Shown: one piece after another, positions 2,423-42,275 of the stretch
Position numbering within the stretch: the stretch's first letter is position 1
Layout of the letters: each line of letters starts with the position of its first letter
DNA from: Alistipes sp.
GTDB lineage: Bacteria; Bacteroidota; Bacteroidia; Bacteroidales; Rikenellaceae
Length of the DNA stretch: 64,000 nt
Direction: 5' to 3'
Assembly (NCBI GenBank): GCA_017623505.1
Contig: JAGAOZ010000007.1
Coordinates: 108,263-172,262, forward strand
Program-made: the position numbers and the translations under genes
Notes under the pieces: model-generated
The model's input: the letters and a program-made list of their open reading frames with translations, nothing else
Told to the model about the DNA's origin: nothing
The model's database searches: none

Positions 2423-5341
2423 CTATTTCTCGCGCGAATTACGCCACTCGACAATTTCAGGTTTGAGTTCATCCTCCCTATCGGACCACACACCGCGACG
2501 CATCAAACGTTCCTTATCACGGTCCATACGATTTACGATACGGAATATAGGACGTTTACGAGAGTTACTTCTTTCGCGCATCGAAGGGCGTATCTCTCCA
2601 TCGAAGATGGACTCCCTATCGGGTCGAAGCTCCGGCACCCACTTAAAATTAGGTAACCTGGTAGGTTGCGATGGCGGGACAAGAGCCAGCGGATAGATAG
2701 TGAACGGAACGTCATTACGATAGGTAATACCCTTGAGTTCCTGATTCTCCAAATAGAAAGACGCCGAAGCACTCTCCAGATATATCAAATCGGTGACAAT
2801 CTTGGACTCCTCACTCTCTTGTTGGAAATAAATCGTCTGAACATTACCCTCGACATCATTACGATAGATATCGTTATCGCGGAAGAATGCTATCATCTTC
2901 TTACCTGTGACTTGATTATAATAGACGGTATCTATCTCGGCAATCATAATAGGATTTTCGAGGAACTCAACACGTTCAATCTGCTGATTCTTGGTATACA
3001 TATCAACCTGCGTAGCGGCAATCTGGTTGAGATTATTCCACAGCACAGGCTCGATATACATACGCATAACCGAGTCGGTACTATTTCCGACCATAGAGTC
3101 ACAAACAGCCTGCGCATCGGAACGGAAGATGCGAACATTGCGATAGGCTTTGATAAGACGATAGATAGAGTCTTGAGGCAGAGAGTCTGTAACCAAACTA
3201 TCAGTCACAGGAGCCTCGTCAAACTCCTCAATCTCTTCGGTAGCGGTAGTATCTATAACAATCTCCTTGCGCAACTCATTCATCTTGATTGCATCCAGAC
3301 TATCCTGCATATCAAGCTCCGAAACATCCTTACCACGAGCAACACGCTTGGCACGCTTTTGAGCACGGCGGATAGAGTCTTTCTGGTATTGGCGTAACTC
3401 ATAGGCTCGCTCCTTCTCGTACTGCGCAATCATCTTGGCTTGACGCTTCTTAGCTATCGAATCAAGGAACATCTTACGCTCCTCAGCCTTCAGACGTAAC
3501 GCCTCAGCCTTAGCCTCCGCCTCGCGTCGCTCAATTCGCTTCTGTAACTGAATAGGAGAAAGTATAGAGTCCGGGAACAGAGAGTCATTAACGATTGAAT
3601 CCAGAGCCAACTTCATAGCAACAGAATCCAGCCGCGCACGCTCCTCAGCAGGGATTGTATCGGTCACGACCTGTCCATCAACAATACTATCTGCTACCTG
3701 CTGCTGCTCCGCCTCCGCCTTCTTATCGCGACGTGAGCGTTTCTCACGTCGAGCCTTGCGTTTATCTTTCTTCTCAGCAACCTGCTCCTCGACCTTTACG
3801 CTATCACTCTGAGCAGCTTGCTCAACAGTAGCATCAGAGGTAGTCGCTTGGCTAAGAGTATCTACTGTCTGGACTGTGTTATCAGTTGTAGGAGCTGCTG
3901 CATTATCTCCAGATGCGTTATCCTGCTCACTTGGAGCGACCTGCATCGTAGGAGTTATATCGCCTGATACACTCTCTGTTGCGGCCTGCTCAGCAGCCTT
4001 AGCTTGGGTAGCCTCTTGATGCTTCCGCTCAAGAATCTCTATCGCCTCAGCCTCATTCTCAGGAGTCGGAACAGCCTGCTCTGCAACGTTCGTGGCGGCA
4101 TCTGCCTCAGCACCCGCTTTAGACTCTGCTTCAGCCTTAGCCTTGGCTGCCTCCTCCGCCATAGCCTTCTCACGAGCCTCAGACTCTGCCTTAGCAGCGG
4201 CTCTTGCTTGCGCCTCCTGCTCTGCCTTCAAGCGACGTTCCTCAACCATACGAATACTATCTTCGCGGGCACGGATAACCTCAGCTCGTTTATCAGCCTC
4301 ACGATTACGGGTCTCCAGCCACATGGTATCGGCACGCACGAAGACAGAATCACTCTCGATGGTATCATAGCTGATAGCGATAGGTTGCTTAGTCAAGAAA
4401 GCACGCTCATCAGCCTTCCAATACTCGCCGTAGTCACCCATAGCAACGACTTTATTCTCAAAGTCATCCATCTGGATATTACGACGTGCGGTAATGTGCT
4501 CATTGGCTCTATCGTAAATCAATGTATCACCCCAAATCTCCTGTTCCGCTGTCAAGATATAACCGTCACGGGTCACGGTATATACGTTAAGGTTTTGGTC
4601 GTATGTACCCTCCTGTGCTGAGAGATAGTCGCCGTCGATATTCCAAATTTCGCTATTTGTAAAGAACTGCGCAAATTTAGTCTCGGTATTATAGATGACC
4701 GAATCACTCTTCAAATCGTAATCCGAGCCGTGAATCTCGACCTGATCAACACATATAATATCGTGGGTATCGGCATAATAATAACCGAAATATGACTCCA
4801 AAATATCGTTATCCTGAACCAAAACACCGCCATCGGTATAACGACCTATCTTGGTTGCGGTATTGAAGGTAAAGTTATAGGTGTAGAGCAGTGCATCGCC
4901 ATCTACAACCTTAACGATAGGTGCATATACCTCTGCAAGGCTGATATTACCGTCATAAATGGCACTATCGCCGTAGATATAGATAGAGTCCTGGTTGATG
5001 ATAACTTTGCTGTAAAAGCCCCAACGAGAGTCGTTGAAGCGTACCGCACTATCGCATGAGATGACCGCTCCATTGTGGTGCGCTGCAAAATTACCTGTAA
5101 AATAGACAATACTATCCTTACCGCGATAGAATGGTCGCACTTGGTCGGCCATAAAGTCGATTTTACGCTTCCTAACAACAGGCCTTGTCTCAGATTGTGC
5201 GACTGGCGTTACAGCCGGTGATGTCTGGGCTTGAAAGACCGGCTGCTCACTATACGATACATGAGTAAAGTCGCTCCCTTGAGCAAAGAGCATACCGGCA
5301 AAAATAATAGAGACGATTATGACTGATAATTTCTTCTGCAC
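2423..5341 (-). CDS. OstA/LptA-like outer-membrane biogenesis protein with a long charged insertion
   Basis: The 972-residue protein begins with a cleavable signal peptide (MQKKLSVIIVSIIFAGMLFA). Residues about 60-340 are a run of beta-strand repeats containing DSAIYDG- and DTLIYDR-like units, as in the OstA/LptA family that carries lipopolysaccharide across the periplasm. From about residue 345 to 725 there is a low-complexity Ala/Glu/Lys/Arg-rich stretch, likely helical or coiled coil, with DSI/DSL repeats. OstA-like strands then resume to about residue 900, followed by a basic Arg-rich tail. It follows the SurA-like gene by 11 bp, so the locus looks like an outer-membrane assembly operon. 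Bacteroidota relatives are, from memory, nearer 550-600 residues; the excess is the insertion. The LPS role is family inference. Confidence 0.8.
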   Translation of the reverse strand: MQKKLSVIIVSIIFAGMLFAQGSDFTHVSYSEQPVFQAQTSPAVTPVAQSETRPVVRKRKIDFMADQVRPFYRGKDSIVYFTGNFAAHHNGAVISCDSAVRFNDSRWGFYSKVIINQDSIYIYGDSAIYDGNISLAEVYAPIVKVVDGDALLYTYNFTFNTATKIGRYTDGGVLVQDNDILESYFGYYYADTHDIICVDQVEIHGSDYDLKSDSVIYNTETKFAQFFTNSEIWNIDGDYLSAQEGTYDQNLNVYTVTRDGYILTAEQEIWGDTLIYDRANEHITARRNIQMDDFENKVVAMGDYGEYWKADERAFLTKQPIAISYDTIESDSVFVRADTMWLETRNREADKRAEVIRAREDSIRMVEERRLKAEQEAQARAAAKAESEAREKAMAEEAAKAKAEAESKAGAEADAATNVAEQAVPTPENEAEAIEILERKHQEATQAKAAEQAATESVSGDITPTMQVAPSEQDNASGDNAAAPTTDNTVQTVDTLSQATTSDATVEQAAQSDSVKVEEQVAEKKDKRKARREKRSRRDKKAEAEQQQVADSIVDGQVVTDTIPAEERARLDSVAMKLALDSIVNDSLFPDSILSPIQLQKRIERREAEAKAEALRLKAEERKMFLDSIAKKRQAKMIAQYEKERAYELRQYQKDSIRRAQKRAKRVARGKDVSELDMQDSLDAIKMNELRKEIVIDTTATEEIEEFDEAPVTDSLVTDSLPQDSIYRLIKAYRNVRIFRSDAQAVCDSMVGNSTDSVMRMYIEPVLWNNLNQIAATQVDMYTKNQQIERVEFLENPIMIAEIDTVYYNQVTGKKMIAFFRDNDIYRNDVEGNVQTIYFQQESEESKIVTDLIYLESASASFYLENQELKGITYRNDVPFTIYPLALVPPSQPTRLPNFKWVPELRPDRESIFDGEIRPSMRERSNSRKRPIFRIVNRMDRDKERLMRRGVWSDREDELKPEIVEWRNSREK

Positions 5342-35473: not shown

Positions 35474-38461
35474 TTATTTAGCAAGCTGTGGAACGTTAGT
35501 TACAACGCCATCGATAGTAACTGTTGCATTTGCGCCGTTAACTGAATCCCAACCTGAGATAAACGCCATCTCACCATGAGCAGGAGCAGTACAACCTGTA
35601 AAATTAACAGCAATGCCGTTTGTGTATGAGCTACTGTTAATCTCAACAGCGCCCTTTGAAGATGCATTTGTTGTGGTAAATGTACATCCTACGTATGAAA
35701 TATTGGCATTATCAAGCGGCTGATCCTTATAGTGGTTTACACAACGGTCTGAATATGTGAAATCACACTCCTTGAACTCTACGCTGTTAGCACCATATGT
35801 CGATACACAATGCTCAGCACCATTTGAGTTGAGGTTGCAATTATCGAACTTCACAGCACCATACAGGAATTGCAAACCATTGATGTCGCAATCCTTATAT
35901 GTTAAACTAGCTGGATTAGCAAAGCCCATATAAATAACTGTGCCAAAGTTGATAGTAACACCCTCAAATGCAAGAGTTGTACCTGTAACAAACTGATCTC
36001 TTGCGTCAACAGCAGTTGCGTCAATAACTGCATCTTTAGAACCTACAATGGTGATATTTTTGCCACGCATATCTGGCTCTGGCATTGTGTAGTTACCTGC
36101 TGCCACATTAACTTTAGCGAGTCCTGCGGTAAGAGCTGCAGCCAAACCTGCCTGCTCAAATACAACAGTCTTAGCCTGCTTTACACCGTTAAGATTAACT
36201 GTGCAGTTGTCGCCCTTCTTCTCATTCCAAAGAGAGTTGCAGCTGACAGTACCCAAAGCAAAGCCGTTTGCAGTAGTGTTGTTGATATTAACAATGTAAT
36301 CATTGCCAGCCTTACCATTAGGGAATGAGCTATCAATCTCAATAGCAGCCTTACCAGCAACAGGAGCAGAAGCATTAAGCACACAATCATTGAAAGTTAC
36401 AGTCTGACCCAAAGTCTCGTGATAAATCAGTACAGACTTACCAGCTGAATTGAATGTACACTTGTTAAAAGTTAAGTCCTTAGCATCGTAAGTCCATACG
36501 TTGTATGAGTTTGGAGAATCCTGCTCGAAAGTACAGTTATCAAATACAACAACATTACCATAGAGGAATGGCTGACCTACGATAGTACAGTCTTTGTAGT
36601 AAGAGTCAGCAATATGCTGAAAACCACAATAATCTGCATTTGAGAACACGAGCTCAATATTCTCAAGGCGAAGATTTGCATTTACAGCTGGTTTCTGGTT
36701 TTGCATATTAATCTTAACACCATCACCAAGACCTACAACATTGATATCCTTACCATTGAAAGATGGGAGCGTATAACCACCCTCTACTGGAGTAATGTAT
36801 ACTGTTTCACCATTTGCAGCAGCGGCAGCCTCGTTGAAAGCCTGCTGTGGGGTCTTCTCAACAACACCTGTCTCAAAATCATTACTGATTTCAACATTGT
36901 TGAACACACCACCATATACATTGATTACACCAGCACCATCAGGAGTGTTTCCACTTGGCTTCTGATTCCAAATAGCACCTGCATCATCTGCCTTACCATT
37001 GAATGTACCACCATAAATATTGATAGTTGCAACGGTTGCATAATTGTTATGACTAGCAGCATTTGAGAAGTTACGGAACAAGTTGCGGTGGAAAGTATAA
37101 GTACCTGCATAGATATTGAGTGTAGCATTACCAACGTTAGAGTTGTTATCTACAAAACAAGGAATCAATGCATCTGGATAATCCAATGCTTTGATTGTCC
37201 AATCAATATCGCCCATCAAGTTTACGATACCAGCATCATTGTTGATGAATGTAGCCAAGCAATTAACAGCCTTAGCTGTGTTGAGGTGAATTGAGCCCTC
37301 ACCCTTGATAGTAAACTCTGCACCATTCTTCACGTGGAAGATACCAGAATTCTTGGTTACGTCAGGTACGCTTGCCTCAATATGCTTACCATTAAGGTTC
37401 AAAGTGATATCTTTGTCAATAACTGCATAGTAACCAGACAACTCTGCACGAGTGCTACCCAAAGACAAAGCTAAGTCTGTATTCAAAGAAATCTCGTCAC
37501 CAGCCTGTGCAGCAGCCAAAGCCTCCTGGAAAGAGTTGTAATTCTGACCATTCAAAGATACATTGTGGTTAGCATCATACTCGTGTCCTGGCTCGCCATC
37601 AAATCCAGGCTTAATCTCAACGTTGAATGTACCGTCGCTTGTGAGAAGGCTACCTACGATGTTTGTGCGGTAGTTACGCTGAATAGGTACAGTAGCAAAC
37701 TCCTTAACCTCGCCGGCACCCAACTTGCCAGCCTCGTCAGTGTAAGTGAACTCAACATCCACCAAAGACTTCTCAGCCGCAGGGAAGAGGTAGTTTACAG
37801 CCAACACATCGGTTTTAGTCTGAGCGGCAGCAGTACCAAAAGTAACTGTGCCCTTAGTCAAACCCTTGTGGTTTGCCAAGTCGAAATCGGTGTAAGCACC
37901 CTCAACAACAACCTTTACATCCTTAACCTCAACGCCAGACTGTGCAGCCTCAGCAGCGTCGTTAGTGATAATGTTAAGCTGAGCGAAAGGACGCTTCAAC
38001 TCTACAGACTTTGTTACAGGACCTGTAATCTCTGGGATGTCGTTTACGTAAGCATAGAACGCATCGTAAGCCTCAGAGTTGCTAACCAATGCAGCAGCAT
38101 CGGTGTAAGCAACGGTCTTTGTTGTCCAATTCACTGTGTAAGGAGAAGCAGGAGCCTCAGCCCAGAACAAAACGTCGTACTTCATACCGTTTACGAAAGG
38201 AATCTCCACGGTAGCAGTTTTGTTTGTGAGAGTTGCAGGCTGTCCCTCAAAGAGCTTGGAGCCATCAACGCGGTTGTAAACAGCATACTTCAAAACGGTA
38301 GCTGTCAAGCCGTCGCCGTGTGCACGAGTTGCCAATTCAGGAGCAGCAACAGTGAAAGTAACTGTAGACTTCTCTGCCACAGGCTGAGCAACCTCGTCCT
38401 TCGAACACGCTGTCATCAACATTCCAAATGCTGCAACAGCAATCAAAAGAAATTTTTTCAT
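35474..38461 (-). CDS. Surface lipoprotein: fimbrillin-like (DUF6562-type) N-domain plus duplicated beta-helix
   Basis: The 995-residue protein shares its signal peptide and first about 300 residues almost exactly with the protein at 20235-22877 (lipobox cysteine followed by SKDE; LKRPFAQLNI; QRNYRTNIVGSLLTSDG). From about residue 310 it differs: a FQEALAAAQAGDEISLN start, a beta-helix, then two homologous blocks (about 545-735 and 770-990). Each has a YTLPSFNGKDINVVG- or YTMPEPDMRGKNITIVG-type strand, a C(T/D)I(V/N)GxxFLYG turn, an NTYG/TYDAK turn and an AxEI(D/N)SS segment, so the helix arose by internal duplication. Surface adhesion or ligand binding is possible. A CTTG-N19-TACTTTTG promoter and the conserved UTR hairpin lie upstream. 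Confidence 0.85.
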   Translation of the reverse strand: MKKFLLIAVAAFGMLMTACSKDEVAQPVAEKSTVTFTVAAPELATRAHGDGLTATVLKYAVYNRVDGSKLFEGQPATLTNKTATVEIPFVNGMKYDVLFWAEAPASPYTVNWTTKTVAYTDAAALVSNSEAYDAFYAYVNDIPEITGPVTKSVELKRPFAQLNIITNDAAEAAQSGVEVKDVKVVVEGAYTDFDLANHKGLTKGTVTFGTAAAQTKTDVLAVNYLFPAAEKSLVDVEFTYTDEAGKLGAGEVKEFATVPIQRNYRTNIVGSLLTSDGTFNVEIKPGFDGEPGHEYDANHNVSLNGQNYNSFQEALAAAQAGDEISLNTDLALSLGSTRAELSGYYAVIDKDITLNLNGKHIEASVPDVTKNSGIFHVKNGAEFTIKGEGSIHLNTAKAVNCLATFINNDAGIVNLMGDIDWTIKALDYPDALIPCFVDNNSNVGNATLNIYAGTYTFHRNLFRNFSNAASHNNYATVATINIYGGTFNGKADDAGAIWNQKPSGNTPDGAGVINVYGGVFNNVEISNDFETGVVEKTPQQAFNEAAAAANGETVYITPVEGGYTLPSFNGKDINVVGLGDGVKINMQNQKPAVNANLRLENIELVFSNADYCGFQHIADSYYKDCTIVGQPFLYGNVVVFDNCTFEQDSPNSYNVWTYDAKDLTFNKCTFNSAGKSVLIYHETLGQTVTFNDCVLNASAPVAGKAAIEIDSSFPNGKAGNDYIVNINNTTANGFALGTVSCNSLWNEKKGDNCTVNLNGVKQAKTVVFEQAGLAAALTAGLAKVNVAAGNYTMPEPDMRGKNITIVGSKDAVIDATAVDARDQFVTGTTLAFEGVTINFGTVIYMGFANPASLTYKDCDINGLQFLYGAVKFDNCNLNSNGAEHCVSTYGANSVEFKECDFTYSDRCVNHYKDQPLDNANISYVGCTFTTTNASSKGAVEINSSSYTNGIAVNFTGCTAPAHGEMAFISGWDSVNGANATVTIDGVVTNVPQLAK

Positions 38462-38642: not shown

Positions 38643-38927
38643 CATTTTTAGAAAAAAAACAATGGTAATATTCTATAAAATAGTAACTAAATATTTCATT
38701 ATTGGAAGATTCAATTTTGGCTACTTTGAATCTATTTTTGTATATTTCTCATCTTCTTGCAGTTACAATGTTTACATTGTGCCTTTATGAAAACTTAGAA
38801 ATCAATTCAAAAGACTTCTCAAAATCACCTCGACCTAACTTGTAAAACCTACCTTATATTATAAAAGACTACCACAGCAAATTTCTCTCCAAAGTAGCTA
38901 TTTGTTACAATTTTATGCATAAAACAT

Positions 38928-38958
38928 TTTGAGATTACACCGTAAAATCATATATTTG
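38928..38958 (+). promoter_or_regulatory. Promoter of the Tyr/Phe operon
   Basis: TTTG (38928-38931), exactly 19 nt, TATATTTG (38951-38958): a perfect consensus. Transcription would start near 38965, about 20 nt before the leader peptide ATG. Confidence 0.85.
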
Positions 38959-38984
38959 TAACCACAAAAAGGTTTCACAGGATT

Positions 38985-39059
38985 ATGTTTAAGGCTTATT
39001 TCTCATATCAGTATTGCTATTTTTACCGCCGCAGCGGTCAGGATGTCGTATGCCGATAA
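38985..39059 (+). CDS. Tyr/Phe leader peptide of an attenuator (24 codons)
   Basis: A short reading frame begins at ATG 38985, preceded by an AGG that could act as ribosome-binding sequence, and ends with TAA 39057-39059. Of 24 codons five are Tyr (codons 5, 8, 10, 12, 14) and three Phe (2, 6, 13), so eight aromatic codons fall in the first 14. The downstream genes make tyrosine and phenylalanine precursors. The last eight codons cover one arm of the antiterminator (GGTCAGGAT, 39036-39044). The product probably has no function except to report charging of tRNA-Tyr and tRNA-Phe. Seen directly: reading frame, composition, hairpins. Inferred: expression and stalling. Confidence 0.82.
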   Translation: MFKAYFSYQYCYFYRRSGQDVVCR

Positions 39060-39120
39060 GAGATTATTTAACCCGACATTATAAAATCCTGACCTAACGC
39101 TGTGCGGTCAGGATTTTCTT
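39036..39120 (+). promoter_or_regulatory. Transcription attenuator with alternative hairpins
   Basis: Three segments compete. GGTCAGGAT at 39036-39044 (inside the leader frame) can pair with ATCCTGACC at 39086-39094, helped by GTCG 39045-39048 with CGAC 39074-39077: the antiterminator. ATCCTGACC can instead pair with GGTCAGGAT at 39106-39114 within a 12-bp stem (39083-39094 with 39106-39117) that ends in TTTTCTT: the terminator. A ribosome stalled at Tyr codons leaves the first segment free and favours read-through; one that reaches the stop codon covers it and lets the terminator form. Confidence 0.82.
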
Positions 39121-39167
39121 ATTAGCAGCATTAGATATATTTACATAAATATTGATTAGAGTTAGTT

Positions 39168-40346
39168 ATGGCAAAGGTTGAAATTCGTCCATCACACAGA
39201 ATGGACTGCATCAAGGAGTATTATTTCTCAAAGAAAAATCGTGAAATAGCTGAACTGCGTAAACAAGGACGCGATATCATTAGTTTAGGTATCGGTAGTC
39301 CTGATATGCCTCCACATCAAAGAGTTATTGACCGCTTGGCTTCGGAGGCTCAACGTCCTGACGTACACGCCTATCAGCCCTACAATGGTAGTGACCTGCT
39401 GCGTGAAGCATACGCTGCGTGGTACGAGAAGTGGTACAATGTAAAACTAAATCCTAAAACCGAAATACTCCCGTTGCTCGGCTCCAAAGAGGGCATTATG
39501 CATATATGTATGGCATTTTTGGATGCCGGCGATAAGGTCTTGGTGCCAAATCCCGGCTACCCAACTTATCGCGCCGCTGTGACTTTGGCTGGTGGCGAGG
39601 TTTTGGAGTATCACCTCAACGAAAGCACCGACTTCTATCCCGATTTTGAGGCAATTGAGAAGCAGGACCTGAGCAAGGTAAAATTGATGTTCGTAAACTA
39701 CCCAAATATGCCGACAGGCACACTTCCAACCGTTGCGCTGTTTGAAAAGTTGGTTGCCTTTGCCCAAAAACATAACATCCTGCTCGTTCACGATAACCCT
39801 TATAGTTTTGTACGTAACAACATGCAACTCAGCCTACTCTCTATCCCTGGCGCATGGGATGTCGCTATCGAGATGAACTCTACAAGTAAGGGCCACAGCA
39901 TGGCCGGTTGGCGCGTCGGCGTTGTCGTAGGTCGTTCGGAGTGGATTGCCGATATTCTCCGTTTCAAGAGCAATATGGATTCAGGAATGTTCTTTCCTGT
40001 GCAAGCTGCGGCTGCCGAGGCGTTGGCTTTGGGCAACGAGTGGTTTGACGAGCTCAACGCAACATATTATGCTCGTGAGGCTGAGGGTTATGCACTTTTG
40101 GATGCTCTCGGATGTGAGTACCGCAAGAATCAGGCGGGATTGTTCGTCTGGGCAAAGATTCCTGCTACGTTTGAGGGTGACTGCTTCGCTTTCTCGGACA
40201 AGGTGCTGGAGGAGTGCGATGTTTTTGTTACACCGGGCGGTATCTTCGGCAGCGAGGGCGAGCATTACATCCGTATCTCACTCTGTATGCCTAAGGAGCG
40301 CTTGGCTGAGGCTGCCGAGCGTGTAAAGAGTCGTTTTACAAAATAA
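39168..40346 (+). CDS. PLP-dependent aminotransferase of the Tyr/Phe operon
   Basis: The 392-residue fold-type I aminotransferase has YQPYNGSDLLREA, LPLLGSKEGIMH, VPNPGYPTY and VNYPNMPTGTLP motifs and the PLP lysine Lys241 in STSKGHSMAGWR. Sequence style is that of the LL-diaminopimelate/aspartate aminotransferase group. Because tyrA and a DAHP synthase-chorismate mutase follow in the same transcript, and a Tyr/Phe attenuator precedes it, the likely substrates are 4-hydroxyphenylpyruvate and phenylpyruvate (or prephenate). Start: ATG 39168, 48 nt after the attenuator. The aromatic assignment is from context. Confidence 0.9.
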   Translation: MAKVEIRPSHRMDCIKEYYFSKKNREIAELRKQGRDIISLGIGSPDMPPHQRVIDRLASEAQRPDVHAYQPYNGSDLLREAYAAWYEKWYNVKLNPKTEILPLLGSKEGIMHICMAFLDAGDKVLVPNPGYPTYRAAVTLAGGEVLEYHLNESTDFYPDFEAIEKQDLSKVKLMFVNYPNMPTGTLPTVALFEKLVAFAQKHNILLVHDNPYSFVRNNMQLSLLSIPGAWDVAIEMNSTSKGHSMAGWRVGVVVGRSEWIADILRFKSNMDSGMFFPVQAAAAEALALGNEWFDELNATYYAREAEGYALLDALGCEYRKNQAGLFVWAKIPATFEGDCFAFSDKVLEECDVFVTPGGIFGSEGEHYIRISLCMPKERLAEAAERVKSRFTK

Positions 40347-40355
40347 GAAAACAAT

Positions 40356-41198
40356 ATGACCGCAACCATCATAGGACTGGGACTTATCGGAGGTTCATTC
40401 GCTTTAAGCCTAAAAGATAAGGGCTTATGCGATAAAGTTTGGGGCATTGACCACTCCGAGCGAAACGCAGCGAAGGCTTTGGAGCTGGGACTTGTCGATA
40501 ATATTATCACCTTAGACAAGGCGATTGCCGAGAGTGATTTGATTGTTCTTGCTACACCCGTAGACACAATCCCTGTACTTGCTACCAAGATACTTAATCG
40601 CATCGGCAAGCATCAGATACTGATGGATATGGGCTCAACAAAAGAGGAGCTTATCGAAATAACCTCAATGCATCCCAATCGTGGCAGAATGGTTGCAACA
40701 CATCCCATGTGGGGTACAGAGCACAGTGGTCCTGAGGCTGCCGAGCATAATGCTTTTACGGGTAGAACTGTCGTTATCTGCGAAAAGGAGCAGAGTGACG
40801 AAGATGCACTGCGACAGGTGGTTAGCATCTATTCTACACTCGGCATGCCTATACGGTATATGTCGGCGGAGGAGCAAGATATGCACTGCGCTTACGTGTC
40901 GCATATCTCGCATATCACATCGTTTGCCTTAGCCCTTACCGTATTGGAGAAGGAGCGAGAAGAGGAGCATATATTTGACCTTGCAGGTGGAGGTTTCGAG
41001 AGTACCGTTCGGTTGGCAAAGAGTCTGCCTAAGACGTGGGCTCCAATATTTTTGGGCAACAAATATAATGTATTGGATGTTTTGCGCGAGCATATTCATC
41101 AGTTGCAAATTCTACGTCGCATGATTGAACGCGACGACCGCGACGGCTTGATAGAGGCCATGCAACGAGCAAATAAGATACGTGAAATATTGAAATAG
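40356..41198 (+). CDS. tyrA: Prephenate dehydrogenase TyrA
   Basis: The 280-residue protein begins with a Rossmann motif (GLGLIGGS, residues 7-14) and contains ATPVDTIPVL, MDMGSTKEEL and HPMWGTEHSGPEAAEHNAF, the conserved prephenate dehydrogenase segments with the catalytic histidine region. It lacks an ACT domain, so feedback control is not obvious here. It oxidatively decarboxylates prephenate to 4-hydroxyphenylpyruvate, using NAD or NADP. It lies 9 bp after the aminotransferase and 6 bp before the DAHP synthase gene. Confidence 0.95.
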   Translation: MTATIIGLGLIGGSFALSLKDKGLCDKVWGIDHSERNAAKALELGLVDNIITLDKAIAESDLIVLATPVDTIPVLATKILNRIGKHQILMDMGSTKEELIEITSMHPNRGRMVATHPMWGTEHSGPEAAEHNAFTGRTVVICEKEQSDEDALRQVVSIYSTLGMPIRYMSAEEQDMHCAYVSHISHITSFALALTVLEKEREEEHIFDLAGGGFESTVRLAKSLPKTWAPIFLGNKYNVLDVLREHIHQLQILRRMIERDDRDGLIEAMQRANKIREILK

Positions 41199-41204
41199 AG
41201 ATAT

Positions 41205-42275
41205 ATGGGGAAGTTTTCTTTAGGCAATAAACGCCCACTCATCATAGCAGGTCCGTGTAGCGCCGAGACCAAAGAGCAGACCATCGAGACAGCTATGCAG
41301 TTGGCTCGTTCGGGACGAGTAGATGTCATTCGTGCCGGTGTGTGGAAGCCTCGCACCCAGCCCGGAACATTCGAGGGAATAGGCGAGCCTGGATTGCAGT
41401 GGCTATGCGAGGTAAAGCAGGCTACGGGGCTACCTATCGCTGTTGAGGTAGCCAATCGCTCACACGTAGAGTTAGCCCTCAAGTACGGTGTAGATTTGCT
41501 TTGGATAGGTGCTCGTACCACCGTATCGCCATTTGCAGTACAAGAGATTGCCGAGAGCCTTCACGACAACCACGACGTCGCTATCTTGATTAAAAACCCG
41601 ATGACTCCCGATATTGACTTATGGTCGGGAGCTGTCAATCGTCTGATAAATGAGGGTGTGCCACGCGAGAATATAGGTCTTATACATCGAGGTTTCTCAT
41701 ATTTCGGTCATAGCAAATACCGCAACCCGCCTATGTGGCACATGATTTTCGAGATGCGCAGTCGCTTTCCCGATATGGTGATGATTTGCGACCCATCGCA
41801 TATTTGCGGTTGCAGACCTCTGCTCTACGGCATAGCACAGCAAGCGGCCGACCTATGCTACGACGGTCTTATCATCGAGAGCCACATCTGCCCTGACAAG
41901 GCGTGGAGTGACGCATCGCAACAGGTTACGCCTGACGATTGTATCTCGATGATTGACAACGTGATGTGGCGTGCAAAGACCACCGAGGACCCGGAATTTA
42001 CAAGCGAGCTGAACGTCTGCCGACAGAAGATAGACCAGATTGATTCTGAGCTATTCGAACTACTGAGCGAACGTATGCGCACGAGTGACAAGATTGGTGA
42101 GATAAAGAAGGCCAGCAACGTGGCTATCCTACAAAGTAATCGCTGGGATGAGATTTGCCGCCGCATGCTCTCCATGACACGCGAAATGGGACTGAGCGAG
42201 GAGTTTGTAAGCTCAATACTCGAAACTATCCATATGGAGAGTATCTCTCGACAGAACGAGATTATGAATAAGTAG
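41205..42275 (+). CDS. Bifunctional DAHP synthase / chorismate mutase (AroQ type)
   Basis: Of 356 residues, about 1-260 are a type I-beta (KDO8P-synthase-like) 3-deoxy-7-phosphoheptulonate synthase: IAGPCSAET, VIRAGVWKPRTQPGTFEG, DLLWIGARTT, IKNPMTPD, CDPSHICG and ESHICPDKAWSD. Residues about 267-356 are an AroQ chorismate mutase (CRQKIDQIDSELFELLSERM, then IGEIKK). The fusion joins the first step of the shikimate pathway to the branch toward prephenate, which TyrA then uses; it is known in Bacteroidetes and Bacillus (fusion order differs). Phe-specific prephenate dehydratase is not in the window. The operon ends just after this gene. Confidence 0.95.
   Translation: MGKFSLGNKRPLIIAGPCSAETKEQTIETAMQLARSGRVDVIRAGVWKPRTQPGTFEGIGEPGLQWLCEVKQATGLPIAVEVANRSHVELALKYGVDLLWIGARTTVSPFAVQEIAESLHDNHDVAILIKNPMTPDIDLWSGAVNRLINEGVPRENIGLIHRGFSYFGHSKYRNPPMWHMIFEMRSRFPDMVMICDPSHICGCRPLLYGIAQQAADLCYDGLIIESHICPDKAWSDASQQVTPDDCISMIDNVMWRAKTTEDPEFTSELNVCRQKIDQIDSELFELLSERMRTSDKIGEIKKASNVAILQSNRWDEICRRMLSMTREMGLSEEFVSSILETIHMESISRQNEIMNK

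Follow-up and report, generated by a model that had tools for sequence, protein, structure and literature searches.

Upstream of an aromatic amino acid operon, Alistipes sp. very probably carries a classical ribosome-mediated transcription attenuator of the four-segment type that senses Phe and Tyr. It lies in the window, as we call the whole stretch of 64,000 nucleotides of DNA that was analysed. The predicted signal is Phe plus Tyr together. The parts expected of a ribosome-mediated attenuator are present in the window: a promoter, predicted by pattern only, a leader frame rich in the codons of the sensed amino acids, a terminator recognized by its anatomy, an exclusive antiterminator with a 5' arm that a ribosome could cover, and fitting genes downstream. 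This anatomy stands out statistically from shuffled sequences and is conserved. A preliminary description of this DNA had proposed the same reading, which is supported by conserved leaders, recurring competing stems and similar energies of the two alternative structures. By its anatomy the element would be a ribosome-mediated attenuator which, as far as our searches go, is new and widespread and could not be assigned to any described RNA family in our tests. Its features in the window are these:

38928..38958, + strand: Bacteroidota-type promoter, TTTG (-33), N19, TATATTTG (-7), by sequence pattern
38985..39059, + strand: leader peptide frame, encoding MFKAYFSYQYCYFYRRSGQDVVCR and then a stop
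39001..39063, + strand: 1:2 or protector hairpin, the aromatic codon run against the stretch with the first GGTCAGGAT, predicted by folding
39036..39044, + strand: segment 2, GGTCAGGAT, 5' arm of the antiterminator within the leader frame, by sequence and duplex energy
39083..39094, + strand: segment 3, AAAATCCTGACC, shared arm for either 39036-39044 or 39106-39117, by sequence and pairing
39083..39120, + strand: predicted intrinsic terminator, hairpin 39083-39117 followed by TTTTCTT, -16.3 kcal/mol

Read directly from the sequence, the leader has 24 codons, from the ATG at 38985 to the TAA at 39057-39059. Five are Tyr codons (positions 5, 8, 10, 12 and 14) and three are Phe codons (positions 2, 6 and 13), with all eight lying within codons 1-14. 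The frame and its composition, as well as the promoter, had been described in just this way and were found again on re-reading; TTTG occupies 38928-38931 and is followed by a 19-nt spacer and by TATATTTG at 38951-38958. Also confirmed is the repeat at the centre of the proposed switch. GGTCAGGAT is present at 39036-39044 and again at 39106-39114, and ATCCTGACC at 39086-39094 is complementary to either copy. The first copy begins 9 nt past the last aromatic codon.

The pairing of 39036-39044 with 39086-39094, the antiterminator, has a duplex energy of -16.8 kcal/mol, which 0 of 100 shuffles of this stretch of the window equalled. This is close to the energy of the terminator hairpin, and the expectation that the alternatives would be comparable thus holds for these local pairings. 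The terminator pairing does end in TTTTCTT, an interrupted T tract at 39114-39120, as had been claimed; its stem, AAAATCCTGACC with GGTCAGGATTTT over 39083-39117, is longer than had been claimed. The hairpin ends 50 nt 5' of the aminotransferase start codon. A simple terminator scan of the window did not list this hairpin, probably because its loop limit was 8 and the long stem encloses 11 nt. The nearest large upstream frame is on the minus strand (35474-38461), and therefore the terminator ends no upstream gene. That frame, which diverges from the operon, encodes 995 aa beginning MKKFLLIAVAAFGMLMTACSKD and has, by eye, a lipoprotein-like start and repeated stretches.

With the protector hairpin the layout would be that of four segments, pairing as 1:2, 2:3 and 3:4. 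Folded from the leader ATG to just 3' of the first repeat, the window gives -21.9 kcal/mol (z -2.17). Such a hairpin can hide the first repeat in the absence of a ribosome.

How would these parts act together? From the sequence we infer that transcription starts upstream of the leader, that the leader is translated, that termination and antitermination occur, and that they respond to Phe and Tyr. RNA polymerase would start a few nt past TATATTTG and a ribosome would load onto the leader frame. When charged tRNA-Phe and tRNA-Tyr are ample, the ribosome would reach the TAA and cover 39036-39044, upon which 39083-39117 would fold as the terminator and transcription would end near 39120. When Phe or Tyr is short, the ribosome would stall at one of the eight codons, between 38988 and 39026, and open the 1:2 hairpin. 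The segment at 39036-39044 would then stay free to pair with 39086-39094, and this 2:3 pairing would block the terminator, allowing the aminotransferase, tyrA and DAHP synthase-chorismate mutase (DAHPS/CM) genes to be transcribed. If there is no translation, the 1:2 hairpin would hide the first repeat and the terminator would form. In an equilibrium fold with the first repeat free the terminator is still preferred (-25.2), and it must therefore be the folding order that lets the switch work.

Are these features peculiar to the window? For comparison, 67 stretches were fetched, beginning with the closest matches and continuing with a spread picked by hand. Of these, 52 contain pheA, 12 contain DAHPS/CM without the other three genes in the stretch (one, L123, is short), two (L086 and L118) run into a contig end, and the last is the window itself. 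To these were added 30 of 35 pheA matches from a PF00800 search and the best 80 of 582 confirmed loci from titled records. The 177 loci were reduced to 163 with an anchor gene (the aminotransferase in the window, pheA elsewhere), to 158 with at least 200 nt upstream and finally to 141 distinct regions, which are Bacteroidales by kinship or title, a few being titled only Bacteroidia or Bacteroidetes. A leader was called where an ATG frame of 8-50 codons has at least 5 Phe/Tyr in 12 codons, and each region was given 30 dinucleotide shuffles.

Conserved aromatic-rich leader frames, which the preliminary description had predicted for relatives, were found in 138 of the 141 upstream regions (shuffled 6.9%), the exceptions being L119, L161 and L177. 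At least 7 Phe/Tyr in 12 codons, which is the value of the window, are reached by 136 regions and by only 0.4% of the shuffles, in line with the view that its codon content is beyond chance. At least 8 are reached by 118 regions and by 0 of 4230 shuffles. Among the 138 leaders, those of the window, of G088 (the closest relative found) and of L055 have the highest Tyr share. Leaders 5' of pheA are present in Phocaeicola vulgatus ATCC 8482 (MKALYNTYFFFFYYFYFSNKVKREFVCVR) and Bacteroides fragilis S82 (MNVFTFTYYFFFYFYFSQKVEREFVCIK), and that of Alistipes sp. An66 reads MRLHGFAYFFYYFFFHARRESGTVCI. In control regions from the survey of the genus the threshold of 5 was never reached, neither 5' of AT, tyrA and aroF inside pheA-led operons (0/146) nor 5' of aroF without operon partners (0/12). 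The frame is also kept in alignments. By pairwise counts, 142 of 23139 aligned positions are out of frame in 27 close relatives including the window, and 0 of 28335 in 26 Bacteroides/Phocaeicola-like sequences hand-chosen for similar leaders. The promoter recurs as well: of 137 leaders tested, 132 have TAnnTTTG less than 100 nt 5' of their ATG (shuffled 8.8%), and 74 of the 137 have it with a TTTG at N17-21 (shuffled 0.3%).

Some upstream regions differ from this pattern. The leader 5' of pheA at L107, in genome G121, reads MPQVRFYDRFYFTSLTTRIRGAEARV and has at most 5 aromatic residues per 12 codons; it may be a frame-shifted, decaying leader. By eye, a TTAACCTTTT-like stretch, about 10 bases and a TCTAT...ATAGA-like inverted repeat precede the start codon of pheA at L114, L115, L116 and L120, and the same arrangement is seen 5' of aroF at L121, L122, L124, L125 and L126.

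Under a strict rule, with the hairpin 3' of the last aromatic codon and a T tract directly after it, 124 of the 138 leaders have a terminator, at a median hairpin energy of -17.4 kcal/mol. Two of the remaining 14, L081 and L091, were viewed by eye and do show a hairpin, followed by a T tract that is interrupted. In the 124, the duplex between the 5' arm of the terminator and the stretch separating it from the aromatic run has a median energy of -15.65, against -7.2 in shuffles. These antiterminators reach p ≤0.01 in 103 and p ≤0.05 in 115 of the 124; 21 lie above 0.01. Their spacing is narrow: in 119 of 124 the first repeat begins 7-16 nt past the last aromatic codon, roughly where the front edge of a stalled ribosome would lie. 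Judged by this footprint, a ribosome stalled on an aromatic codon would leave the first repeat open. The leader stop codon is 3' of the first repeat in 93 of the 124, and in the other 31 it ends from 6 nt before to 2 nt after the start of the repeat; by the same footprint, a ribosome that has reached the stop could in either case cover the repeat, at least partly.

The prediction of covarying stems was borne out between lineages, where changed sequences still pair, and not within the 26 closest aligned relatives of the window, where the antiterminator core showed no covariation. The shared arm differs by lineage, examples being ATCCTGACC, GCCGTTCC, ATCCCGCTC, GTCCTGCC and AAGCCTCGG, and the sequences that pair with it vary accordingly. 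One of its columns holds 72 C, 25 A, 18 T and 3 G, and both partners follow; since folding chose the pairs and the best consensus fit set the columns, only the variety of letters is informative here. Cognate arms pair at a median of -15.65 and arms taken from foreign lineages at -9.1 (124 leaders), and for 93 of the 124 at most 5% of foreign arms pair as well as the cognate one. In the 27 aligned close relatives including the window, the antiterminator core is nearly invariant and for that reason shows no covariation, and in the terminator one-sided changes dominate. Among the 26 Bacteroides/Phocaeicola-like sequences, 10 have both sides of one antiterminator pair altered, and terminator covariation goes little beyond shuffles.

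The protector hairpin has a median z of -2.49 in the 124 leaders, with 82 at z ≤-2 and one above zero, and the median paired share of the first repeat is 0.79. In the 26 Bacteroides/Phocaeicola-like sequences, laid against a structure derived from one of them, standard pairs make up 81.8% of the cells of this hairpin; shuffling the columns gives 78.9%, and sliding the structure gives no more than 56.9%. Neither the paired share nor the covariation score was equalled in any of the 500 shuffles or in any slide. Changes on both sides affect 27 cells, against 16.6 in shuffles; pairs changed on both sides number 6, which is not above the shuffle mean of 5.7.

Is it the supply of charged tRNA that stalls the ribosome? 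Or could the nascent peptide itself do so, as in a TnaC-like arrest-peptide sensor acting on the same hairpins? The C-terminal GQDVVC is kept among close relatives, as an arrest peptide would lead one to expect, yet in other lineages it is wholly replaced (KVEREFVCIK, NNRD, KAGVCM), and there it is the RNA pairings that the DNA letters keep. Phe-Tyr exchanges are frequent (559 and 456 by pairwise counts in the two groups), and so are synonymous changes at the aromatic codons (348 and 314), both of which speak against it. Changes of aromatic codons to other residues are frequent too (434 and 803), and in the Bacteroides/Phocaeicola-like group they outnumber the Phe-Tyr exchanges (803 against 456). 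We consider an arrest peptide improbable. Still less probable is that an ordinary terminator merely follows an unrelated small protein gene, the hairpin ending a short transcript and leaving the operon unregulated. Small frames are indeed common, but the leader and both pairings occur together at narrow spacing in most of the 141 regions, and the leader is absent before the other genes of the operon. Hardly credible at all is some other RNA sensor, be it a T-box or a riboswitch, or control of the first gene by translational attenuation: the same terminator and antiterminator anatomy would serve, but tRNAs aside there is no Rfam match at gathering score in the window and 13 other pheA-leader loci, and the terminator hairpin has a T tract and ends 50 nt before the start codon.

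Ribosome-mediated attenuation by Phe and Tyr is also consistent with the genes that follow, all on the + strand:

39148..39156, + strand: scar of pheA loss, 9 nt left between two flanks that align with G088
39168..40346, + strand: aminotransferase by family match, the first gene of the operon here and the second, after pheA, in the closest relatives
40356..41198, + strand: tyrA, prephenate dehydrogenase, NF006307, above cut-off
41205..42275, + strand: DAHP synthase-chorismate mutase fusion, family match below curated cut-offs

The preliminary description had named an aminotransferase, tyrA and DAHPS/CM. Of these, tyrA stands firmly (341.7 bits against an NCBIfam cut-off of 295), and the aminotransferase and the fusion match their families without reaching the curated cut-offs. 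The DAHPS/CM protein was matched in 172 of 180 genomes of the genus. The operon genes serve Tyr synthesis, and in relatives Phe synthesis as well; downstream of the predicted attenuator we thus find tyrA and DAHPS/CM in the window, and also pheA in relatives.

In the closest relatives the gene order is pheA-aminotransferase-tyrA-DAHPS/CM, and the normal position of the element is 5' of pheA. A first scan for leaders 5' of the aminotransferase in relatives was mostly empty, because the operon of the closest relatives starts with pheA and many others have paralogous or differently placed aminotransferases; scanning 5' of pheA found them. Prephenate dehydratase (PF00800) is present in 34 of 61 genomes searched, and the genome of the window, G000, is not among these. 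In G000, with a completeness of 93.7%, neither pheA (PF00800) nor hisG (PF01634) was matched at E ≤0.001. This suggests that its lineage imports Phe and His.

G088, the closest relative found, has an aminotransferase 97% identical to that of the window. Positions 38876-39147 of the window align with 2379-2655 of G088 (locus L076, oriented) at 78% identity, and the window from 39157 aligns with G088 from 3488 at 85%. In G088 pheA starts at 2662 and the aminotransferase at 3499. The left alignment therefore stops 6 nt before the pheA start and resumes 11 nt before the aminotransferase start. In the window pheA was thus cleanly lost, and the predicted attenuator is now 5' of the aminotransferase gene. 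With pheA gone, what remains under the switch would be the aminotransferase, the Tyr branch, and the shared first step together with chorismate mutase. A loss of Phe codons following that of pheA finds no support, as G088 keeps pheA and has the same five Tyr and three Phe codons.

Attenuators with Phe leaders are known from enterobacteria, upstream of pheA and pheST (Rfam Phe_leader). The element described here resembles these by anatomy, with an aromatic-rich leader frame and competing hairpins, including a terminator, before an aromatic operon. It differs in having no Rfam match in the loci tested, in mixing Tyr with Phe codons, and in its predicted control of operons of the pheA-aminotransferase-tyrA-DAHPS/CM type in Bacteroidales and relatives. 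The leader of the E. coli trp operon likewise has four segments, pairing as 1:2, 2:3 and 3:4, with the regulatory codons in segment 1. Its layout is shared by the present element, in which, unlike in trp, the codons extend across a long run that is itself an arm of the 1:2 hairpin; the amino acids are others and no sequence relation was seen.

At gathering scores, Rfam 15 returned only tRNAs for the window, one tRNA for 11 further loci and nothing for 8 other loci. These 19 loci include 13 with a pheA leader (10 of the 11 and 3 of the 8) and 5 hisG loci. The Rfam families of Phe, trp and his leaders gave no gathering-score match in the window or the 19 loci. For 38900-39200 at E ≤10 nothing came up but four weak hits on the minus strand, to unrelated families, and the T-box model matched neither there, nor in the window, nor in the 19 loci. 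No Rfam 15 family covers the element in the loci tested, and therefore Rfam annotation would miss it there.

No description of a Phe/Tyr attenuator in Bacteroidota was found in the literature listings and main texts searched, and an earlier listing may exist. In the same phylum, the main text on Flavobacterium psychrophilum reports structured 5' regions and strong clues for leader-peptide attenuation 5' of amino acid biosynthesis operons; that main text has neither "phenylalanine" nor "aromatic", and its supplementary table may hold the element (PMC9723704). For Bacteroides thetaiotaomicron, a main text without "prephenate" or "aromatic" describes small frames within long 5' UTRs, calling them 'reminiscent of leader peptides', its example being the hypothetical gene BT_4401 (PMC7366714).

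The distribution beyond Bacteroidales was sampled in 38 genomes hand-picked from the match list. A Phe/Tyr leader is present in 14 of 20 genomes of the same class and another order (five families, with ten genomes from f30). All 14 have a terminator-like hairpin and 10 reach p ≤0.04 for the antiterminator; the six genomes without a leader comprise every member of families f29 and f34 that was sampled. It was found in 0 of 18 sampled genomes from other classes of the phylum, in several of which the pheA open frame is long or fused and the stretch taken may not be the true upstream region. The Phe/Tyr element is broad in distribution and probably old.

Upstream of hisG in order-level relatives (L256-L278), an ATG frame in which 12 codons include at least 3 His is present, by raw count, at 18 of 23 loci, examples being MRFYSRHRVHHHHHHLSG and MNNTLHHHHHHCNSSR. 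A terminator-like hairpin accompanies 15 of the 18, and just a part of them reach p 0.05 for the alternative pairing. They look like a His counterpart of the Phe/Tyr attenuator.

Taken with Phe/Tyr leaders before pheA in Bacteroidales and at least three other sampled families, His leaders before hisG make it fairly likely, in our view, that control of amino acid operons by leader-peptide attenuation is both old and general in the class of the Bacteroidales. If this is true, in bacteria that to our knowledge do without initiation driven by Shine-Dalgarno sequences, the ribosome trails RNA polymerase closely enough to steer it. Coupling of transcription and translation has, as far as we know, been little studied in Bacteroidota, and the element is a concrete case of it that can be tested genetically. 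The pheA loss in the window indicates how such a switch survives the deletion of its first gene. In a predicted Phe auxotroph, a switch outliving pheA would, if this is true, raise Tyr synthesis on Phe shortage too. More widely, the element offers a mechanism for the control of aromatic amino acid synthesis in common gut bacteria, including Phocaeicola vulgatus ATCC 8482 and Bacteroides fragilis S82. Alistipes-type and related bacteria probably use ribosome stalling to sense a shortage of Phe or Tyr, much as E. coli does for tryptophan.
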